From Oidiodendron maius Zn (taxonomy: Eukaryota; Ascomycota; Leotiomycetes; Myxotrichaceae): a stretch of 64,000 nucleotides of DNA. The stretch lies in contig KN832870.1 of assembly GCA_000827325.1 (NCBI GenBank), forward strand, positions 5,890,001-5,954,000, in the 5' to 3' direction. The notes under the pieces are model-generated. The model was given only the letters and a program-made list of their open reading frames with translations, made no database searches and was not told where the DNA came from. Positions 1 to 60,829 of the stretch are shown piece after piece (the stretch's first letter is position 1; each line of letters opens with the position of its first letter). The translations under genes were made by a program, and so were the position numbers.

Positions 1-939
1 AAATTGGTATCGTCGGAGATTTAGAAGCACGAAGTCTAAATGTAATAATATGGCGCGTGTTGATCCACGTGAACCAGTTGTTCAGCCGCCATGAACAGGT
101 TTCCATTAGATAATGATGCCCGGTCAAAGTTATCTCGGCGTTGTGTTCACAACAATGCTCCTGTTATGTCATCCCTTTTACTGTGCACCCTTCTTAATAC
201 TACTTCATAGTCCTATCAATTAGTCCCGGGAGAGGTTCCTTACTATTAAAATCCAAATATTCCACGAATTCTCGAAATGATACTCCACCCACTCTGGTAA
301 AGAGAGGATATACATATATTATTCCCTAGCAGCAATTGGCAATTATCTTGCCACCATTCCTCCCCGCTCTCATTCGAGATATTCACGCCCACCGGCAGAA
401 GAAAGGCGAGGGTCAGCGGATAGCCACAACGATGGGTCTGCACTATATTCGAGAAACTTTTGCAAAGCCTTGCCAACCAATTTCTTTTATTAAACCCACA
501 GAATATTCGAAGTACAGAGCGACTAAAAGCACAAATTGCTCCCCGAAGGTTCGGTCGCTGCTGCCAAGAGCAGTCCAGTCAGAACCTGGCCCATCGGATT
601 CGGACATGCTATTCCGATCGCTAGCATGCTGATTTTACTGTACATATAAATCTTTGAGAATTATCAGCGACAGATAGACAATCTTCCCGTCTGGAAGTCA
701 ACTCGGCGATAAATATCACGTGACTTTGACTGTCTATCAAAGGTAAGTGCTTGATTTGACTGCGTGACTGTGTAGTGCGTTCAGGTAAAGGTGAAAACTG
801 AAGCGTCGGTCACATCGACCTGCATAGACTCGTCTTGTCCAATGACTCTGGCATTGGAGATTAAGGTGACGGAAGTGACGCTTCAAACTAAATCATTTTT
901 TATTATATGTAAATAAATAAGCGAGTTTCTTATCGAAAT
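1..939. other. Gene-poor stretch, no gene recognised
   Basis: Only short, mutually overlapping reading frames without recognisable motifs are present on either strand. The one structured element is the first of two diverged repeat copies at 626-699. I see no second RNA gene and no clear transposon. Confidence 0.5.
626..699 (+). repeat. Diverged repeat, copy A
   Basis: This stretch aligns by eye with 1343-1421. Both begin with TGCTGATTTTACT/TGCTGATTTACTCT, share AATCTTCCCGTCTGG/AATCTCCCTCTCTGG, and end in CTGGAAGTC. The two copies differ by many substitutions and small indels. Copy B is open as a 76-residue frame (1318-1548), while copy A is interrupted. They are probably an old duplication of part of an unidentified gene or element. 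Confidence 0.5.
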
Positions 940-1099
940 GTCTTCGTGGCTCAGTGTAAGCACCCTCTTCTTCCAACCACCAAAACAATTCACTAACATC
1001 CAAAAAGTGGTTAGAGCGTTGGTCTCATATTTACATATGAAAAGATTGTTAACAGTCTGGGCCATCCAAAGGTCGTGAGTTCGAGTCTCACCGAGGACA
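940..1099 (+). tRNA. Elongator tRNA-Met(CAT), interrupted twice
   Basis: The exons fold as a cloverleaf. The acceptor GTCTTCG (940-946) pairs with CGAGGAC (1092-1098), with discriminator A1099. The D stem is GCTC/GAGC. The anticodon loop is CTCATAA, giving CAT, with the U31:U39 mismatch also seen in other elongator tRNA-Met. The T arm is GTGAG-TTCGAGT-CTCAC. One intron, 1030-1063 (34 nt), lies at the canonical place after base 37 and contains ATG that can pair with the anticodon. A second insertion of 52-53 nt splits the D loop. Read as 956-1007 it begins GTAAGC, holds CACTAAC (991-997) and ends AAAAAG, and its removal gives CAGTTGGTTA, a normal D loop and A box. The B box and a T-run terminator are intact. 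It could instead be an insertion-damaged pseudogene. Confidence 0.8.
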
Positions 1100-1103
1100 A
1101 TAA

Positions 1104-1132
1104 TTTTTATTTATTTTTTTTCAACCTACTTT
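1104..1132 (+). terminator. Pol III terminator T-runs
   Basis: A run of five T and then a run of eight or more T follow the tRNA 3' end within about 35 bases, as expected for RNA polymerase III termination. This supports the tRNA locus being transcribed. Confidence 0.6.
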
Positions 1133-8624: not shown

Positions 8625-9415
8625 TCAGACGGCGGAGAAGGATTTGTACCCTACGTCCTTCACAAATGTCTGTTGCCACGCTCTCTGTGTCTCCCCTTCA
8701 GCGAGTTCCAGGTAGAGCTTTGCATGCGCCTCCCCGTCGACTTTAAAGGCTGCCGAACCATCCACCTTCCGCTCATCGCCGTAGTAGAACCTATTCCTAT
8801 TAGTATATGCTGATAAAGTCTAGAGAGGGTACTATACTTATATCCCCGGTCCTTGTATGCCGCTGCTGCAGACTGGATGATATGTGCAGCTCCCGACTTG
8901 CCCACGCCCAGACCCAAAAATGATGGGAGGGTTATTGTGTTTAGTATATTTCCGGTGTAGATGAATGTTCTCGATGCGGAGTCTGGGAGCTGCGAAAAGC
9001 CAAGCGCAGCTTGTTGCGCAGCAACGAATGCACTGGTAGTGGTGATGGTCGTGCCCCTCGTGAAGTCGGTCAGTGGCAGTGAGAGCGGATCATCCGGTGG
9101 AGTGGCAGTCAAAGAACTGGCTTCACCGTGTCAGTAACACTATTTGTCCGTAACAGGCTGCGTACTCTTACCATTATAAACGACAACACTTGGGATACCC
9201 AATAGCGCCTTGACCTTTGAGAATACATCGACTACTGAGTTCGGGTCTGAGAAATCGCTAGGGATGTGCACTTCATCAGGAGTATTGTCTGCCTCCTTTG
9301 CCCTCCGGGCTGCGAGAGCAACTCTGTAGCCTTTTGCAGCAAAGGCTCGGGCTACATGCTGGCCGACGTTTGGTCCTGCGCCGAGGATGAGGATGACAGG
9401 TGAGGTACTTGGCAT
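8625..9415 (-). CDS. Short-chain dehydrogenase/reductase (SDR)
   Basis: The three-exon model (introns 9121-9171 and 8791-8837) gives 230 residues, about the usual length for classical SDRs. The N-terminus has the Rossmann nucleotide motif ILGAGPNVGQ followed by AARR, a basic pair consistent with NADP binding. The usual YxxxK catalytic pair is not obvious. The corresponding region reads GVGKSGAAHIIQSAAAAYKDRG, so the active site may be altered. It lies tail-to-tail with the glyoxal oxidase, with stop codons less than 180 bases apart. The substrate cannot be inferred. Confidence 0.85.
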
Positions 9416-10379: not shown

Positions 10380-12547
10380 ATGTCGGAGGCCGGAAGTTCC
10401 AGCTTAGGAAATGAAGATTCCTTGTTGCTTATTACCAGAGTCCGTATCCCCGCCCTCTGCTTCTAGCAAGGTGTACTCTGCTGATGTGGACTAGGCGTGT
10501 GACATGTGCCGGAAAAAGAAGATTCGCTGTGAAGTGACCTCGGGTACCTGTGTGCAATGCATCAGGTACAAGACTCAATGTCATTTCACTCCCATCAGTG
10601 TGAAACGAAAACCAAGGCGATCTGTCAGGTGAGTATCGCCAAATTGAACAGAGTTGAATGACTCCAAGCCGAAAATTTGTCTAAATAGGACTGAGATTAT
10701 ATAGGATTAAGCAAGTCGAGGAACTACAGCAGAAGCTGCAATGGATGGAAAAGCAATTGAATCGTGCCACGGAGCGTCAGGTGTCTGTACCACATAGTGA
10801 CCTGAGGAATGATCGTCCTCTGCTGGAGACGCCGAATTCAAGTCAATCCCGATCGGGAATTGCCTATTTGGATGAGATTGTTTCTGGCGATGGCCTGATA
10901 AATTATTCTCCTGCTATGTCGGCAGAGTCCCCCGAAGTTTCAAACGCCAACAACTCATCCCACGAAAGTAATGGCAAACCTTCTGTTTACTTGTCCGTGC
11001 TAATGCTCCCCAGCTCCTTCCTCATCAGTTCCTGATAACCAAATAACAATCTCTCATTGGATTCCAACATTTGACAACAATGAATTCATGAGACCATATT
11101 TTAAGGTTCTTCCGCCGAAAGATGAAACGTTGGATCTGATTAAAAAATCATTTAAAGGGTTTTACAGCGCGTACCCACTATTCGACATACCTACTTTCAT
11201 CTCCACATTTGAATCTCAAGGCACTGATATCACTGATCTACGCTGGTGGGCATGCTTGAATGTTGTATTGGCGCTTAGAACCCAATTTCTGCCAACAATG
11301 TCGGGAGATAAAGAAGAAGACCGTCAAGCTTGGGGATATTTTCAAAATGCTCTTGCAGTTACTAACCAGCTTATGACGATGCATTCTACGATTTCATCGG
11401 TACAAGCACTGCTTGGCATGTCTCTTGTAATACTGGGGACGCCAAATCAAGGACCGGCTTCGTTATTGATCTCGTCCGCAATCAAACTGGCGCATAGAAT
11501 TGGCTTGCATAGACGTAGCCACGAACTTGGTCTCAGTCAGGCCGAAATCAACGAACGGAATCGAGTCTTTTGGATTGCATATTGCTTAGATAAGGATATC
11601 AGCCTACAAACAGGACAGCCACCGACACAAGACGATGAGGATATGGATGTAGAGTTACCCTTTGAGAATAATTTCCCCGAACCCCATCCCGGCGAACTGA
11701 ACCGTGGAGGCTATTTTAGTTTCCGAGCCAGATTGGCGATTATCCAGGGAGAGATATACACACGTCTGTTATCCGTGAAAGCTGGCAAACAGTCTACGAC
11801 CGAGCGAATAATAGCGGCTAGAGACCTTGAATCTAGGCTTGAAGTGTGGAGAGCATGTGTTCCGAGCGATTACTTACGTAGGCCAGGTACCCAGGGTCCG
11901 GCCGTCGAAACTGGTAGACACCCAGCCATTCTTCAGCTGACCTATTTTAAGTGCCTCGCTATCGTCTATGGGTCTCTACCGACGCTTCCAATATATCGCG
12001 AGGTTGCCATACCAGACGACTCCAATAGGTATCAAATCAAATCAGCAGCGATCTATGCAACTCAAGCCCGGAAAGCGATACAGTTACTACCAGTAATTCC
12101 ACGCAGAAAGCATGCATGTATCTGGTAAGTCTAATAACTTATATTTGCCCTTATCTCGAAACATCCTCTCCTCCTTGCCGGGTAAGCGGTAATAATTACA
12201 GGTCTGTTCTCCACATATTTGTCACGGCCACAAAAACATTACTCACGCATACCATTTCAAACCCCTCGAACGCACAGGCTCAGGCAGATCTCGAGCTTAT
12301 GGAGCCACTCCTCACGCTGATGGGGATGCTAGCCGCGAGCGGCGAGAGTAATAAAGTTGGTGAGATATATCAATCTTGTGTCGAAATGTTTAATATGGCG
12401 AGGACGGCTGTCTTGAATGCGAGTCTTCCCGATATCAGCCCTAATCAAACCAGAATAATGGGGCGACTTAGAGGTGAAGAAAGTATGCAAGATTTTCTTC
12501 GAAGAATGGAAAATATACGCGAAGGATACGATGGGGATATGAACTGA
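10380..12547 (+). CDS. Zn2Cys6 transcription factor
   Basis: The model with introns 10440-10494, 10629-10704, 10968-11013 and 12125-12201 gives 637 residues. Exon 2 opens with the binuclear zinc cluster ACDMCRKKKIRCE...CVQC...QC, followed by a short heptad-like dimerisation stretch (VEELQQKLQWMEKQL). The middle is a fungal transcription-factor regulatory domain (PF04082), including SSAIKLAHRIGLHRRS and NRVFWIAYCLDKDIS. The first intron is needed to bring the initiator ATG into the zinc-cluster frame and bypass a TAG directly before it. It is a nuclear DNA-binding regulator and a candidate local regulator of the neighbouring metabolic genes. Confidence 0.9.
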
Positions 12548-15018: not shown

Positions 15019-16737
15019 ATGGCACCTTCAGCAATAAACCTAAATGGACAACCGAGCAGTGCAAAGATCGATGTTTTTAATAACTATGCCAATTGGATCA
15101 ATGGGAAAGCACATATAACTCCAGAAAAACGCCACGGCGTCAACCCTGCCACTCTCGAAAACCTGCCTGACGTTCCTGTCTCGACGAGAGAAGATGTCGA
15201 GGCGGCGGTAAAGTCTGCTCGTGAGGCGTTTAAATCTTGGAAAGCCGTCCCGGTCGAAGAGCGTCAAGCTGCAGTGACGAAATTTGCTGAGGCATTACAA
15301 GAAGTCGCAGGGGACTTTGCCAAACTGCTAACTACAGAACAAGGGAAACCAGTGGGTGCATCCTGAGCTCGATATGATCTATACTCGAAGAACGGTGCTT
15401 CATGTTTGTTAATTATAAGGCTGAAGCTAACACGTAGCAGTTAGCCTTGGCTCAAGCAGAAGTAGCAGGTAGCCATATTTGGATGGAGGCGATGGCCAAA
15501 ATTACTCTCAAATCAGAAATTATACAAGAAACGGAAACAAAACAGACAATTGAAAGATATACACCCCTCGGTGTTTGTGTCGGTATTGTGCCATGGAACT
15601 GTGAGTTTTATCCTACAATCTCGCTCTAGCTACTCATTAACTGAGTCGTCAGTCCCTCTTCAACTTGCCTGCGGTAAGATTGCACCTGCCCTGGTGACAG
15701 GCAATACCAATATAATAAAACCATCGTGAGCTCTCTATCACAGCACTTTAAATCCTTCTAGCACGGCTAATAATATGTACCTCAGTCCATTCACCCCATA
15801 CTGCGGTATCAAACTTGTCGAGCTCGCCCAGCAATTCTTTCCCCCGGGTGTCGTCCAAGTCCTCTCTGGTAATGATTCCCTCGGGCCGTGGCTCATAGAG
15901 CACATTGACGTTGACAAAATATCTTTCACTGGTTCCATAGCAACGGGTAAGCGTGTCATGCAGTCAGCTGCCGGCACGCTGAAACGCATCACCCTAGAAC
16001 TAGGTGGGAACGATCCGGCCATTGTTTGTGAAGATGTGGATATTGAGACAGTTGCTCCCACAATTGCTACCTTAGCCTTCGCTAATTCTGGACAAATCTG
16101 CATAGCAATTAAGAGAGTTTACGTGCAAGACACCATCTACGAGAAGTTTAGAGATGCTATGTTTAAACATATAAAGACGCTGAAGTTGGGTAATGGACTT
16201 GACTCCGAGACCAGTCACGGTCCGGTTCAAAATGAAATGCAGTATGAGCGGGTGCAGGGCTTTATTAAAGATATTGAGAGTCAGAAATGGATTGCAGCGA
16301 CTGGAGGAGAAAAGCCTATTAATTTAAAAGGCTACTTTATCACACCCACGATCGTTGACGGTCCTGCTGATGACTCTCGAATCGTCGTTGAAGAGCCATT
16401 CGGTAAATGTCAAAGTGCCCGTGACAAATTGCATTGCTAATTAGACCCTCTAGGTCCAATCGTCCCTCTCCTTTCTTGGAAGACTGAATCTGAGGTACTT
16501 GCACGCGCCAACAACACCAGAATGGGCCTCGGAGCATCAGTGTGGACGAGAAATCTTGAGCGGGGTCGCCGCATTGCCGAGCAGATTGAAGCTGGGAGTG
16601 TGTGGATTAATTCCCATCTAGAGGTGTCACCATATGCCGCCTTTGGTGGTCATAAGCAGAGCGGCATTGGATCGGAATGGGGACTTTCAGGCCTAAAATC
16701 ATTTTGTAATGTCCAGACACTCTTTTTGGCCAAGTGA
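15019..16737 (+). CDS. NAD(P)-dependent aldehyde dehydrogenase
   Basis: The five-exon model (introns 15352-15440, 15601-15652, 15726-15785, 16403-16453) gives 488 residues, normal for the family. Signature elements occur in order: VPWN in the cofactor domain, ISFTGSIATGKRVM, the general-base motif LELGGND, the catalytic cysteine in FANSGQICIAIKR, EEPFGPIVPLL, and the C-terminal GGHKQSGIGSEWG. The enzyme oxidises an aldehyde to a carboxylate in the cytosol. No peroxisomal targeting signal is seen (it ends LAK). The divergent arrangement with the MpaB-like oxygenase suggests consecutive steps, which is inference. Confidence 0.95.
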
Positions 16738-28579: not shown

Positions 28580-30501
28580 ATGCCGCTTATGAACTGGGAG
28601 GATGCAGCGTACCTTAGAAAGGACGCAGACGGGAGCTTTATCCCACTTGTAGGTCAAGTACTTTACGTTGCGAGTCGTGTGCTGAAGAGTACTAGGAAGA
28701 ATACGAGAGACGCACCAAGCAGACCGGTAGATTGCCTTTGTCAACTTGGGAGGTCAAGCTGCTTGTAATTACCGGGTTAGTTTGTCGCTTCTTTCATTAT
28801 ATGCCACGCCTCTCTGTGTGGTTAGAAGTCTTGTCTAATGCCTTTCTACAAACTGCAGGGCAGGATTCTTCCTCGACTCCTACGATCTCTTCATTATCAA
28901 CCTAGTCGCACCCGTTTGGCAGTATGAGTACTGGGGCGGCCTTACCAGCCATCCTAAGGGCGGCCACTACCCACCGGGCCTACGAGGTCTTGTGAATGCT
29001 GGCGCGAATATTGGGAACATTTTCGGCCAACTCACATTCGGCTTCCTAGGCGATCTTTTCGGTCGCAAATTCGTCTATGGAAAGGAACTCATTGTTTGCA
29101 TTATCGGCATGATTCTGGTTATATCACTTCCCAATAGTATTCCTACGTCAACTCTGAAGATGATATGGATCTTTTGCTGGCGTCTTCTCATGGGTAACGT
29201 CATCTCCTTTCTACTTTCTTTTTAGCAGAATACGGCATGAGTAGTACTGACAAAAGTTCACAGGAGCTGGAATCGGCGGTGACTATCCTATGTCTGCTTC
29301 TATAGTATCCGAACGTGATCACTTAAAACGTCGGGGGGCCTTTCTAGGTTGGATCTTCTCAAACCAGGGCTGGGGGATGCTGGCTGGCTCTATCGTCACA
29401 ATCACTGTACTAGCTTGTTTCGAGCCAGCACTGAACGTACGTGGAGAGTACAATCAATTGGATGCCGTTTGGAGGCTTCAGATGGGCATCGCCCTTGTCC
29501 CGGCGCTGATTATCCTTCCTTTCCGACTTACAATGCCTGAAGGAAAAAAATATCTCGAAAGTAAAGAACTCAATTACTCGACTTCCTCCTCCCTTATCGA
29601 GCCACGGCCTGAGCCCAAACCTGCAGATCCTGGCAACATAGCTGACACCGATGTGGCTATTCGAAATGAAAAGGCGATTAAAACACAGCAGAATGCCGCC
29701 ATCCTAGGGACACCGGACCAGGGAACAAAATGGAACGCTTTTATTGTATATTTCAGCGAGTGGCGGCATCTTAGAACCCTTCTAGGTACCTCTTTGTCCT
29801 GGTTCCTCCTCGACATTGCATTTTACGGGACCAACCTAAATCAATCAGTTATTCTGACCGACATCGGTTTCAGCACTGGGAAGAATGAGTACCATACGCT
29901 TATGCGGAATGCTTTAGGAAACTTGATTGTCGCTGTTGCAGGCTACGTACCTAGATACTTTATCACTATTGCATTGATTGAGGTTCTGGGCAGAAAGTGG
30001 ATTCAAATTCAAGGATTTCTTATCTGCGCGCTCATGTTCGGCATTCTGGCGGGTGATTATGGAGGATTAAGCACAGCAGGCAAGTTCGTCCTGTTTGCAA
30101 TTGCACAAGTGAGTATCCCTTTTTCTCATGGCTCTTGCCATTCATCATAAGATCTTTTCTGATGTTGCGTCTAGTTTTTCTTCAACTTTGGCCCAAATTC
30201 CACAACATTTATTATTCCGGCAGAGGTATTTCCCTCTCGAGTCCGAGGATCGGCACACGGCCTCTCTGCGGCAACTGGCAAGTTGGGCGCAATTCTTGCA
30301 GCACTCTTGTTCAATTTCCTCAGCAGCAATATTATAGGACTTCCAAATGTGCTGTGGATTTTTTTTGCATGCAACATTCTTGGGGCTATCATCACCTTCC
30401 TCCTTTTGCCTGAGATGAAAGGCCGTGATGCCGATCTTATCGATTGGGAAGAAATCCAGGAAGCCCGTAGAAATAACATGGAACACGGGAAGACGAAATA
30501 A
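28580..30501 (+). CDS. MFS transporter, phosphate:proton symporter type
   Basis: Five exons (introns 28649-28695, 28776-28858, 29194-29263, 30109-30174) give 551 residues with about twelve membrane segments. Signature segments match the Pho84-like family: [20 protein letters not shown] in the first helix, [32 protein letters not shown], and [21 protein letters not shown] near the C-terminus. It has a long central cytosolic loop. It probably imports phosphate or a related anion at the plasma membrane. Export of a pathway product is possible but would be unusual for this family. It ends the run of tailoring genes. Confidence 0.88.
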
Positions 30502-31431: not shown

Positions 31432-33636
31432 TTGCCATGTGCAGGACAACGGTATTGTGAGTCAAACGCTAACATTACAATCAGGGCTCAATGCAGTGTG
31501 TGTGTGGAAATTTTGCATCTGCTAAGTTCCAAAGAGAGTAATTATTCCTTTTTTGGCGACTTCAAGGACGTAATGATGTCGACAAAATGCGATGTACATC
31601 CAAGAATGTTCCGGTCTTGTTTCAATAACGATTTGGAAAATGCCTCTGACTTTGAGGCCGATGGTTGCTGCAATTCGGTAATCTTATTCGCGAAAGCAGC
31701 GAACAGTAGCAAATTATTATTCGCTTGGTCTCTGCACCTCGTCTCTGATACGAATCAAAGGGACCCGACTGCCAGAGGTAAGATCGTCAATCCACACTGG
31801 ATTGAGAAAAACGTTATTCGACAATGGAAAAGGGGTTGCGATCGCAGGAATAACAAAGACTGTCAGATGTGCCCCGCCGCTTCTCGACTTATTTTGACTC
31901 GGCCATGTTGGCTCATTGATACTTGGCGTCTATGTCTGACCACAGGAGCGGTGAATGCCCCTTATGTTGCTTTAAGCTACGTGTGGGGAGAGGAACCTTT
32001 CTTCAAGACAACAAGAAATGATCTACCTTGGTTACAACTTGATCAGGCTTTCTTCGACTCCCACAACAGACTCAGAGTGCCCAGGGTGATTGCAGACGCA
32101 ATCAAACTTCTGGATCTCCTAGAGGAACGATATCTTTGGGTCGATGCTCTCTGTATTGTTCAAGATGATGATGAAGCAAGGCATTCTCAGATTCAAAACA
32201 TGGCTTCCATATTTGCCAATGCGACCGTCACTATTATAGCAATGCAGGGAGCCAACGCTAACTACGGTTTGCGTGGATTGAGAGGCATATCGAAACCGAG
32301 AAACCTTGTCCAAGACATCTTCACACTGGGGGAAGGATCCAGTATCACTACTACGCAGCAACAAAATGAAGATCAAAACCCATGGTCCCAAAGGGGTTGG
32401 ACATTCCAAGAGCAAATCTTTTCTCGAAGACAATTGGTGTTTTCTGCCGATAGAGTTCAATGGAAGTGTGCATGCGGCAATTTTCTCGAAGATTTGATGC
32501 CGCCCCCAGCTTCAGAAGTCGTCAGCCAATCCACGCAGAGCAGAGATCATGTATTCTCTACTTCTATTCCTAATTTTAATCGTTATGCGGAGCTTGTGCG
32601 ACAGTATAACGATAGACAATTCACGTTTCCAGAAGACGCTTTGGCTGCCTTTTCCGGTATAACCACTGCACTCAGCCACACCTTTTACGGCGGGTTCATT
32701 TGCGGGTTGCCAGCATTATTCTTAGACATGGCACTCGTTTGGCAACCAGATGCTAAATGTCAACGGAGAGTTCCTTCGAAGCCCTCAAATCCAACCAAAT
32801 TGGGCCTGCCGAGCTGGTCATGGGTGGGTTGGAAAGGTAAGATCGACCACAACTGGAGCTTGGGGTGCCGATTTGAGTACATGGTATCGAGTAGACATGA
32901 GTCCTTGAGCGTGCCGCGAACCATTCCTCTTGTTCAATGGTACAGCCGTTCGTGGGAAAATATGGAGTTGGCTGCTATTAAAGAGCCTTTGGAGCTCCAA
33001 GAGTTAAAGAAACGAGGGCTGAAGGGTATTGGAAGCATTCCACCTGGCTGGAGGAGGTTTGACTACCATGGTGTAGCATATGAGCCGGAAATGCCCCCAG
33101 CACGATACGTCTATAAGCATGACTGTGATCCAACTACCGAATTTTGGTACCCAATACCTCTGTGTGAGGGTCAACACAACCCTCCAAGGCCCCGCGGTAC
33201 GGACACATTACTCTGTTGCCGTACGCAGAGGATATGGGCTTTCCTGAGCCAGAAATTCTCCCATTCTACAAGGGAATATACGAATTCTTCTATTCGCAAC
33301 AGCAAAGGAACTTGGATTGGAGAGCTCCGGTTGCATGACAACAAAATACCGACTAAAAATTTGTCTCAAAGCCACCAGGGTTCCGAGAGTGGCGACTTGT
33401 GCGAGTTAATTGCTATTTCATGGGGTTATTTCTATGAGAAGTGGGACTGGTCAGTGTTTCAAATAGACGAATGGAATCACAAGGAACGTCCAAGGGATTC
33501 TGAGAAGTACGAGTTTTATAATGTGCTTTGGGTTGAGTGGCAAGACGGGATAGCATATAGGAAAGCTTGTGGACGCGTCATGAAAAGCGCATGGGAATGT
33601 CAAGAACTTGAATGGGTCGATTTAGTATTAGGATGA
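31432..33636 (+). CDS. HET-domain (heterokaryon incompatibility) protein
   Basis: One long open exon of 734 residues. The N-terminus has a short Cys-containing CSVCVEILHLL segment common in HET proteins. The HET domain (PF06985) runs from APYVALSYVWGEEPFFKTTR through RYLWVDALCIVQDDD and MASIFANATVTIIA to the WSQRGWTFQEQIFSRRQLVF block. All three conserved blocks are present, so the domain looks functional. HET proteins trigger cell death on non-self recognition during hyphal fusion. Many paralogues have unknown partners. The true start could be upstream or at an internal Met (about 31573). No NACHT/STAND or repeat domain follows. Confidence 0.9.
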   Translation: MPCAGQRYCESNANITIRAQCSVCVEILHLLSSKESNYSFFGDFKDVMMSTKCDVHPRMFRSCFNNDLENASDFEADGCCNSVILFAKAANSSKLLFAWSLHLVSDTNQRDPTARGKIVNPHWIEKNVIRQWKRGCDRRNNKDCQMCPAASRLILTRPCWLIDTWRLCLTTGAVNAPYVALSYVWGEEPFFKTTRNDLPWLQLDQAFFDSHNRLRVPRVIADAIKLLDLLEERYLWVDALCIVQDDDEARHSQIQNMASIFANATVTIIAMQGANANYGLRGLRGISKPRNLVQDIFTLGEGSSITTTQQQNEDQNPWSQRGWTFQEQIFSRRQLVFSADRVQWKCACGNFLEDLMPPPASEVVSQSTQSRDHVFSTSIPNFNRYAELVRQYNDRQFTFPEDALAAFSGITTALSHTFYGGFICGLPALFLDMALVWQPDAKCQRRVPSKPSNPTKLGLPSWSWVGWKGKIDHNWSLGCRFEYMVSSRHESLSVPRTIPLVQWYSRSWENMELAAIKEPLELQELKKRGLKGIGSIPPGWRRFDYHGVAYEPEMPPARYVYKHDCDPTTEFWYPIPLCEGQHNPPRPRGTDTLLCCRTQRIWAFLSQKFSHSTREYTNSSIRNSKGTWIGELRLHDNKIPTKNLSQSHQGSESGDLCELIAISWGYFYEKWDWSVFQIDEWNHKERPRDSEKYEFYNVLWVEWQDGIAYRKACGRVMKSAWECQELEWVDLVLG

Positions 33637-58727: not shown

Positions 58728-60829
58728 CTATGAGATATAGCTTTTCATAAATCTCTCTTCTCCCCGCTTCACAAATCTCACAGGCACATTTGTCCCAAGC
58801 ATCTGCAGCGTTATAACCGACTCGCTCTCGCGTATCAATTTTATCGCTTTTCTTTTCGCTTTATCATATATCGCTCTTCGCTCATCGTTCCCCATCTGCT
58901 CGATTTCTTCATCACTCGCCCACTCACTGACATCTAATTCTACCGTGTGGGTCTTGAAGATGACAGCTATAACTGCCGTTATCTCAACCTGAGCAAAACG
59001 TCGACCGGGACAGGCTCGCGCTCCTTCGGAGAACGGAATAAATGCACCTTTGATTGGGGTGAACAGTTTGTCGCTAGAATCAAAAGACGCATTTTCAAGG
59101 CCGTCAACACTTCCTGAGTTTCTACACTCCTTGGGTTCAGAGACAGACTTGCTGGCGGGCGAAAGCCACCGTTCAGGCACAAAGTCGTCGAGATCGTGTG
59201 GCTTGCTCGATATCTTGCTGGGGCTATGTGGCCAGTATCGAGGATTCCTATGAACACCTACGGTATTGATATGGATGAACGTGTTAGTCGGTATCATGAA
59301 AGATTTCCCTTCGATGGTCAACGGTTGAGGAATCTTTTTCACGATTTTTGGGATGTCAACAATCGGCGGCATGAGGCGGAGAGTTTCGTTCATCGTAGCA
59401 CCGACCATGCTCATATAAAGACGGCCCATGTCAACGTCATAGGTCCAGTCTTCAAACGATCGAGAGCCGACTATGGAGTCAATTTCACCTTGAAGACGAG
59501 CTTGTGAGTCGAGTGCGATAGCTAGAAAAAGAAAGCTAAAATGTAAAGTGTTTGCACTGGTTTCGTGCCCTGCAAAGAGGAAGATCCACGAATTAGCAAT
59601 AACGTCTTGTTTGCTCATATATTGCCCATTCGAATCATCTGGCTTGTTCTCAGAGGCGATGATAAGAGGTCCTACTAATGTTAGACAGCTGACTTAAGCC
59701 AATGGGGAAGTAATCACCCATAAGATCCATTGTGCCATTTTCTGCTTTCTCGCCACGCTCGAGTTGGTGGACTTTATAATCGCACAATTCCTTTAAATAC
59801 TCCGAGCATTCGACATATGACTGTACAAGTTTCTTGTGTTCATCAAAGGGCAACAGCTCTAAGAGAAGATTAGTGTTTTGTCACGGGATGAAGGTGTCCG
59901 ACTCACTTAGCAACCAGATAGGAAATATTGCCATCCAAATAATGCCGTGCGAAAGCGTATTTAGGCAATACTTAAATGTCAGGCTATGATTTTCTCTCAG
60001 TTTTGCCGTGTTGAATCCCGGGATGGTCCGAATACCGAGGTCCTTTTCATCCTCGTCGTCCCAGACTTGTCTCACACCAAATCCAGCGCCGCTGATCACA
60101 TGTAATGCCATCAAAGCAGTATCTGGTGCGGTGTCCTTGACTTTCATGTATTCGGGACTATTTCCTTCAAGCTTTGACCAAAATTTAAGCATGCCACTTG
60201 CTTGTTTCAGGCTTTCTTTCCAAACCAGGGCGTTGCTCTTTTCAGAAAATGCCGGCGCAACAACTTTGCGATGCCTCTTCCAGTTATCGCCCTCTGATGA
60301 TAGCATATTACTACCGAATATATCTATAATACCATATATTTCAACGGGTTTGAGAAAGTCATTTCGCCGTGCTGTCATTTGAATGATAGCTCCTGGGTTG
60401 CTGAGGTTTAGGTATATTTGTCCAGGGCTGACAATAAGGAAGACTTCTCCAAAGGCTTTGTGAAGTTCTTCGGCATAGTTCCAGCCACGGTGTGGCTCAA
60501 GGATTCTACGTCACTGTGAGTTATGCGGTGGATCTGAGGCGGGAATGCTTACATGTGCCATAATCGACCTCGAGAGTATGGTATTGCTTTAAGGATATTG
60601 AGGATAGGGTCGTGAATTGCGGTCCACAAAAAGCCGGCGATGCCATCCAAAGCTGAGATTATATGAGAGGCAAGCCCGTCTACATAGTTCTGAGTGGATA
60701 CTCACGAGAAACAGCATAGGGGAGCCCAGAGTCTTTGGCAATGGAAATATTATGGCGAAGTGATATTACATTTTTTGATATCCAAAGTAGCACAATAGTG
60801 CACAATGCAATAGGAATGTATCCAAGCAT
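58728..60829 (-). CDS. Cytochrome P450 monooxygenase (second)
   Basis: Five exons (introns 60653-60705, 60506-60552, 59859-59906, 59672-59717) give 635 residues, long for a P450. The start at 60829 gives a membrane anchor (GYIPIALCTIVLLWI). Diagnostic parts are GDNWKRHRKVVAPAFSE (C-helix WxxxR), the I-helix FLFAGHETSANTL, the ExxR motif NETLRL, VPERWL, and the heme loop FSEGARACPGRRF with the axial Cys. Extra length comes from a Ser-rich insertion between the PERF motif and the heme loop (about residues 470-515). AGHETS and the overall pattern resemble fungal CYP4/CYP52-like clan enzymes. No pathway partners are adjacent. Confidence 0.93.

Follow-up and report, generated by a model that had tools for sequence, protein, structure and literature searches.

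A gene for the elongator tRNA-Met(CAT) in the window, by which we mean the whole 64,000-nt stretch of Oidiodendron maius DNA that was analysed, raises the question of which machinery removes the introns of a tRNA. In textbooks the spliceosome has no part in this task, which falls to a protein endonuclease and a ligase. The gene carries, in addition to a canonical intron after position 37, an insert in the D loop that looks like the intron of an mRNA. Judging from the sequence, this insert is very probably a U2-type spliceosomal intron that resides in a Pol III gene and is removed by the spliceosome, and the same would hold for introns in at least 12 other tRNA genes and in a U6 gene of this genome.

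A tRNA-Met gene interrupted twice

The first-pass annotation had described a tRNA-Met(CAT) gene with a 34-nt canonical intron and a 52-nt D-loop insert, and we found its coordinates and motifs to be correct base for base (Table 1). The acceptor strand of exon 1 pairs 7/7 with positions 1092-1098. The Rfam tRNA model spans the gene from end to end and, knowing nothing of splice sites, assigns a long insert to the D loop purely from sequence and structure, and ARAGORN, run in its bacterial setting, called no tRNA at this locus. The insert reads GTAAGC...AAAAAG, with the last base of CACTAAC 10 nt before its end. Our splice model demands GTRNGY at the start, a CTRAY whose branch A lies 8-20 nt before the end, and a terminal AG. 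The 52-nt end of the insert is the first AG to satisfy it, and removal up to this point restores the D arm; later AGs, at 59 and 61 nt, also satisfy the model. Within the canonical intron, a motif scan detected zero splice-motif starts.

Table 1. Coordinates (window numbering) of the tRNA-Met locus and of four protein-gene introns
Feature	Positions	Strand	Basis or remark
Elongator tRNA-Met(CAT) gene, twice interrupted	940..1099	+	Rfam RF00005, 41 bits
Exon 1: acceptor 5' strand, positions 8-9, D stem 5' strand, D loop start	940..955	+	Sequence
Spliceosomal-type intron, 52 nt, D loop	956..1007	+	Fits GTRNGY/CTRAY/AG model
5' splice site GTAAGC (predicted)	956..961	+	Sequence
Branch site CACTAAC (predicted)	991..997	+	Branch A = 996, 11 nt before intron end
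Exon 2: remaining D arm, anticodon stem 5' strand, anticodon CAT, A37	1008..1029	+	Sequence
Canonical tRNA intron, 34 nt, after position 37	1030..1063	+	Position, segmentation
Exon 3: position 38, anticodon stem 3' strand, variable loop, T arm, acceptor 3' strand, discriminator A	1064..1099	+	
B box of internal Pol III promoter, AGTTCGAGTCT	1078..1088	+	Sequence; B-box search match
Upstream element AAATAAGC at -25	915..922	+	Pattern search
T run, probable Pol III terminator	1104..1108	+	Sequence
Sugar transporter intron, 66 nt	30109-30174		Pfam domain spans junction
Aldehyde dehydrogenase intron, 60 nt	15726-15785		Pfam domain spans junction
P450 intron, 48 nt	59859-59906	-	Pfam domain spans junction
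Short-chain dehydrogenase intron, 45 nt	9121-9165	-	Pfam domain spans junction

A diverged direct repeat of 44 nt (75%) flanks the tRNA-Met gene, its two copies lying 722 nt apart at window positions 656-699 and 1378-1421. Exact-match scans with an exon in bacterial/archaeal and viral collections gave no relatives.

Introns of mRNA type across the tRNA genes and in U6

The tRNA genes compared here were collected from RF00005 matches, B-box searches and short stretches, with anticodons and positions read by eye, and the catalogue is a sample. Among its 32 fully read genes, 13 contain mRNA-type introns, 15 in total, and these lie in the acceptor stem, the D arm, the anticodon loop (33/34), the variable arm and the T stem. 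The intron follows the GGTA of the D loop in Ala-AGC, Ala-CGC, Pro-TGG and the second Thr-AGT gene and sits elsewhere in the D loop in Arg-ACG. Other sites are found in tRNA-Arg(CCG) (between positions 7 and 8), in the initiator tRNA-Met (between 8 and 9), in Leu-TAG (acceptor stem, 6/7), in Pro-AGG (between 33 and 34) and in Ser-CGA (variable arm). Two genes carry more: Gly-CCC has mRNA-type introns in the D loop, at a place other than after GGTA, and in the T stem, plus a long canonical intron of about 41 nt, while the three introns of Thr-CGT comprise two of mRNA type, in the D stem (12/13) and the anticodon loop (33/34), and a canonical one at 37/38.

The RF00005 profile search, in which 63 of 1,439 first-look candidates were scored, contributed 17 tRNA genes, two of them, tRNA-Arg(CCG) and the initiator tRNA-Met, with mRNA-type introns at places where the model had shortened the gene; the window gene is absent from its result. 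The 19 genes without such introns are the other 15 of this set, Val-TAC and two Glu-CTC genes (all three from 20 fetched stretches) and Pro-CGG (from 12 others). Only Thr-AGT, Lys-CTT and Glu-CTC occur twice among the 32 read genes. The B-box patterns gave no genes for Phe, Tyr, Trp, Asp, Ile and Gly-GCC, which may have an intron in the T arm or may simply have been missed; Leu-AAG and others are likewise absent from the catalogue. A search with TGTTCGANYCA returned 11 places, and when these were judged by eye from the letters, the known Cys gene was the only one resembling a tRNA. Of the remaining fetched stretches, two are candidate tRNA loci and the others are not tRNA genes. In one of the two (L072) the T stem pairs 2/5. 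The other (L098, G000:C7:510240-510600) resembles a tRNA in its acceptor, D and T arms; its 5' end lies about 178 nt from the T arm, and no anticodon is clear.

All 15 introns start with GTRNGY, as fungal 5' splice sites do, end with AG and contain a CTRAY branch site whose A lies 9-13 nt before the end, the boundaries having been placed with the splice consensus in mind; only three D-loop inserts (in the window gene, L073 and L081) were located by the Rfam model alone. Their lengths fall between 48 and 54 nt, with a mean of 51.5 nt. The 5' sites are GTAAGT (7), GTAAGC (2), GTACGT (2), GTGAGT (2), GTGCGT (1) and GTATGT (1), and the 3' ends are CAG (7), TAG (6) and AAG (2). A later AG also satisfies the model in 7 of the 15, and the first AG, which restores the tRNA, was taken. 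By chance the model is satisfied in 75 of 2,000,000 random window segments of 45-60 nt, with three registers allowed. The sense strand of the 13 gene bodies (1,899 nt) holds 16 motif starts, namely the 15 introns and one nested start, GTGTGC, in the second Thr-AGT gene, and the antisense strand holds none. With 28 motif starts in the 128,000 nt of both window strands, the motif is about 40 times denser in the 13 intron-bearing genes than in the window. The 19 other tRNA genes contain zero motif starts in 1,695 nt, but the two groups were sorted by the presence of an intron and this zero therefore does not count as independent evidence, as do the density and the absence of antisense starts.

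Removal of the introns restores the tRNAs, as judged by sequence. The acceptor stem pairs 7/7 in all 13 genes, the T stem 5/5 in 12 of them (4/5 in the second Thr-AGT gene), and the D stems form all pairs but at most one. The anticodon stem pairs 5/5 in 10 of the 11 genes scored, Leu and Ser being outside this count, and 4/5 in the elongator tRNA-Met. ARAGORN returned the correct anticodon for 2 of the 13 genes when unspliced versus 10 of 13 when joined.

The same signals mark the introns of protein genes in the window. In a small sample of five introns, predicted mechanically using the motif, four fall within Pfam domains that extend over the junction (Table 1), and in the fifth gene the Pfam match, SACS, does not cross the junction. 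A PDB search with one joined window protein confirmed the aldehyde dehydrogenase. In length, the tRNA introns are more tightly grouped than the supported protein-gene introns (45-66 nt). Elsewhere in the window, we noted a HET-domain protein at 31432-33636 and a Fungal_trans factor at 11088-12128, which are suggestive of a filamentous ascomycete.

AAATAAG or a close variant is found upstream of 8 of 13 genes with introns and 11 of 19 without, as raw counts from a simple pattern. It lies at -23 to -31 in 6 of 13 intron-bearing and 6 of 19 intron-free genes, and farther away in the others (-72 in the initiator tRNA-Met). A U6 gene (L105, G000:C1:2364972-2365077 plus flanks) likewise has the upstream AAATAAGC and a T-run terminator, and contains two mRNA-type introns, one of 49 nt (GTTAGT...AACTAAC...TAG), which departs from GTRNGY, and one of 54 nt (GTAAGT...TTAAT...TAG), in which CTRAY is absent. 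The suggestion of the first-pass annotation that an mRNA-type intron had entered a tRNA gene thus gains support from 14 similar introns in 12 other tRNA genes and from the two in U6. A second U6-like gene (L104, G000:C3:851693-851795) is intronless and diverged, and is followed by a long T run.

Copy number and competing explanations

A genome-wide count of other elongator tRNA-Met(CAT) genes, which the first-pass annotation had named as a check, gave none besides the window gene in pattern searches and BLAST over the 45.9-Mb genome, the assembly of which is possibly incomplete. A 24-nt pattern running from the end of the anticodon stem through the T arm was found, with up to 3 mismatches, at one place in the genome, that of the window gene, and its backward control at none. 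At the same tolerance, a D arm-to-anticodon pattern was found at 88 places versus 131 for its backward control, and among the best-matching 20 of the 88 the window gene is the sole tRNA. A looser elongator pattern gave 166 places versus 265 for the backward control; 30 of the 166 were inspected, including the four exact matches, and the window gene alone resembles a tRNA. BLAST with the joined 74-nt tRNA-Met matched the window locus only. For the initiator, a 20-nt pattern with up to 3 mismatches was found at 6 places versus 5 for the control, one exact (L048), one with a single mismatch (L106) and four with 3 mismatches. L048, the only complete initiator tRNA-Met gene found, carries an mRNA-type intron, and this initiator therefore needs intron removal. 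L106 (G000:C6:1037753) is a second initiator 3' half, located directly after a GTAAGC...CTAACATAACATAG segment, with no readable 5' half upstream.

These counts bear on the possibility that the intron-bearing genes are pseudogenes and that intact tRNA genes do the work, a possibility that the first-pass annotation had entertained for the window gene as a dead copy. A tRNA left unspliced, with its D loop broken, would indeed be inactive. The initiator 3' half L106 looks broken and Thr-AGT has a second, intron-free gene (L033); moreover, the B-box searches cover part of the T-arm types and the searches for intact twins covered 2 of the 13 genes. In a review of tRNA introns, non-canonical introns of eukaryotic nuclear tRNA genes are described as lying mostly in one of many synonymous genes, which are supposed to be pseudogenes (PMC4090602). 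However, the absence of a second elongator tRNA-Met from the searches, be it by the 3' part, by the 20 best 5'-part places or by BLAST of the joined tRNA, disfavours a dead copy in the window. The acceptor stems of all 13 genes, fully paired once the introns are removed, speak against the pseudogene explanation too, as does the retention of splice signals in all 15 introns, which would hardly be expected of dead genes. We therefore consider the pseudogene explanation highly unlikely.

It is still less probable that the extra segments belong to the class of ectopic tRNA introns found in nucleomorphs and Cyanidioschyzon, which the tRNA endonuclease excises at bulge-helix-bulge sites. Such introns are reported from the D and T arms of algal tRNAs (PMC4090602), and in 4 of our 15 introns three of the four pairs of the central helix can form in one of two arrangements. 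Yet the complete four-pair helix forms in none of the 15 in either of the two arrangements tested, and all 15 bear spliceosomal signals. The canonical tRNA introns do not fit the splice model (0 of 12), a weak control, most of them being too short to fit.

For the window gene alone, the insert could be an intron-like 53-nt insertion that leaves CAGTGGTTA if excised, flanked by a direct repeat. The repeat claimed by the first-pass annotation is present, as AGTG at 953-956 and 1006-1009, and the resulting D loop, AGTGGTTA, is acceptable. Folding gives minimum free energies of -23.7 and -22.6 kcal/mol for the forms with 52 and 53 nt removed, neither predicted as a cloverleaf, and ensemble energies of -24.28 versus -24.26. 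Nevertheless, 26% of same-sized random segments of the window have a repeat of at least 4 nt equally near both ends, set against the rarity with which such segments satisfy the splice model, and around the 15 junction pairs the repeats are about as long as expected by chance (mean longest 3.13 nt versus 3.07 nt in random segments). This makes a repeat-flanked insertion hardly credible as an explanation of the D-loop insert. Group I and group II introns were rejected, the inserts being far too short for either.

Known systems and a possible route of processing

Capless Pol III transcripts are unusual substrates for the spliceosome, and U6 and U3 show that such splicing is possible. The introns of fungal U3 genes are GT-AG in 98.54% of cases and have an RCTRAC branch in 129 of 138, and U3 and U6 were named in 2017 as the only small structured RNAs so far known to be often interrupted by introns (PMC5832005). 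The tRNA introns described here resemble those of fungal U6 and U3 in their GT-AG ends, fungal branch sites and small structured RNA hosts, but the hosts here are tRNAs, many at once, and stems as well as the anticodon loop are split by the introns. In ascomycetes, often lichenised ones, spliceosomal introns are on record in rDNA (Bhattacharya et al. 2000, as cited in PMC6652019); those introns and the ones described here are short, of mRNA type and located in structured non-coding RNA. Pol I makes large rRNA, whereas the introns described here are hosted by Pol III tRNA genes.

The tRNA introns of nucleomorphs and of Cyanidioschyzon merolae also occupy non-canonical positions, including the D and T arms (PMC4090602, PMC3978253). 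Those ectopic algal introns are described as substrates of the tRNA endonuclease; they show bulge-helix-bulge motifs in C. merolae and are 3-24 nt long in Guillardia (PMC4090602). Non-canonical position is common to both, whereas the introns described here carry spliceosomal signals and measure 48-54 nt. Canonical nuclear tRNA introns at 37/38 are present in many of our genes, the window gene included, and differ in position from the mRNA-type ones. Introner-like elements are many short introns of similar size, a property that the introns described here share, but the interiors of the latter resemble one another no better than shuffled sequences do (best local score 16, against a shuffled maximum of 23), and their junction repeats show no excess.

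Spliceosomal introns in tRNA genes were reported by none of the matches listed in full-text searches that we judged by title and start of abstract and that mostly covered literature outside subscription, and the phrase 'spliceosomal introns in tRNA' is absent from the full-text literature searched. A word search of the main text of the tRNA-intron review, as available, gave no word starting with 'spliceosom' (PMC4090602), and the accessible portions of PMC3978253, PMC11782384 and PMC4494063 report no spliceosomal tRNA introns. Within the literature so covered, such introns are already known in U6, U3 and rRNA genes, and we found no earlier report for tRNA genes.

With this in mind, one may outline how the tRNA-Met of the window would be made. 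The gene would be transcribed by Pol III, as suggested by the upstream AAATAAGC, the internal B box and the T-run terminator. In the precursor, the spliceosome would recognise GTAAGC, CACTAAC and AAG and take out 52 nt, thereby restoring the D loop AGTTGGTTA, and the separate 34-nt intron after position 37 would be cut out by the tRNA endonuclease and the ends joined by the ligase. We infer the transcription by Pol III, the removal by the spliceosome and the order of the two splicing steps from the signals in the DNA. Spliceosomal removal would likewise serve a U6 gene and no fewer than 12 further tRNA genes of the genome, and several tRNAs, including the product of the sole complete initiator tRNA-Met gene found, would then depend on the spliceosome.

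We think it likely that, in this fungal lineage, spliceosomal introns have spread across the Pol III transcriptome. A large share of the tRNAs, among them those of the one elongator and the one complete initiator tRNA-Met gene found, could then not be made without the spliceosome, and several would pass through two machines in series, the spliceosome and the tRNA endonuclease. U6, the core of the spliceosome, would itself need two splicing events. Reverse splicing into abundant small RNAs is an old idea for U6. The introns may have arisen when excised introns were reverse-spliced into Pol III RNAs, or by some other kind of intron gain, and our observations bear on whether reverse splicing is how introns spread among such RNAs.

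The sequence points to Pol III tRNA precursors as spliceosome substrates in at least 13 genes, which bears on how the spliceosome chooses its substrates without a cap or Pol II. If this is true, translation would depend directly on tRNA splicing. An A box split by an intron, as in several genes here, could weaken TFIIIC binding, and the genes described bear on how Pol III copes with such a split. The low tRNA counts annotated in such genomes would, if this reading is true, be in part an artefact of undetected interrupted genes. Programs that find tRNAs can miss or misname such genes, as is seen from the omission of the window gene by the RF00005 search and the few correct calls by ARAGORN on unspliced genes. 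Even after joining, ARAGORN read the elongator tRNA-Met as Phe, Arg-CCG as cct and Arg-ACG as Ser.
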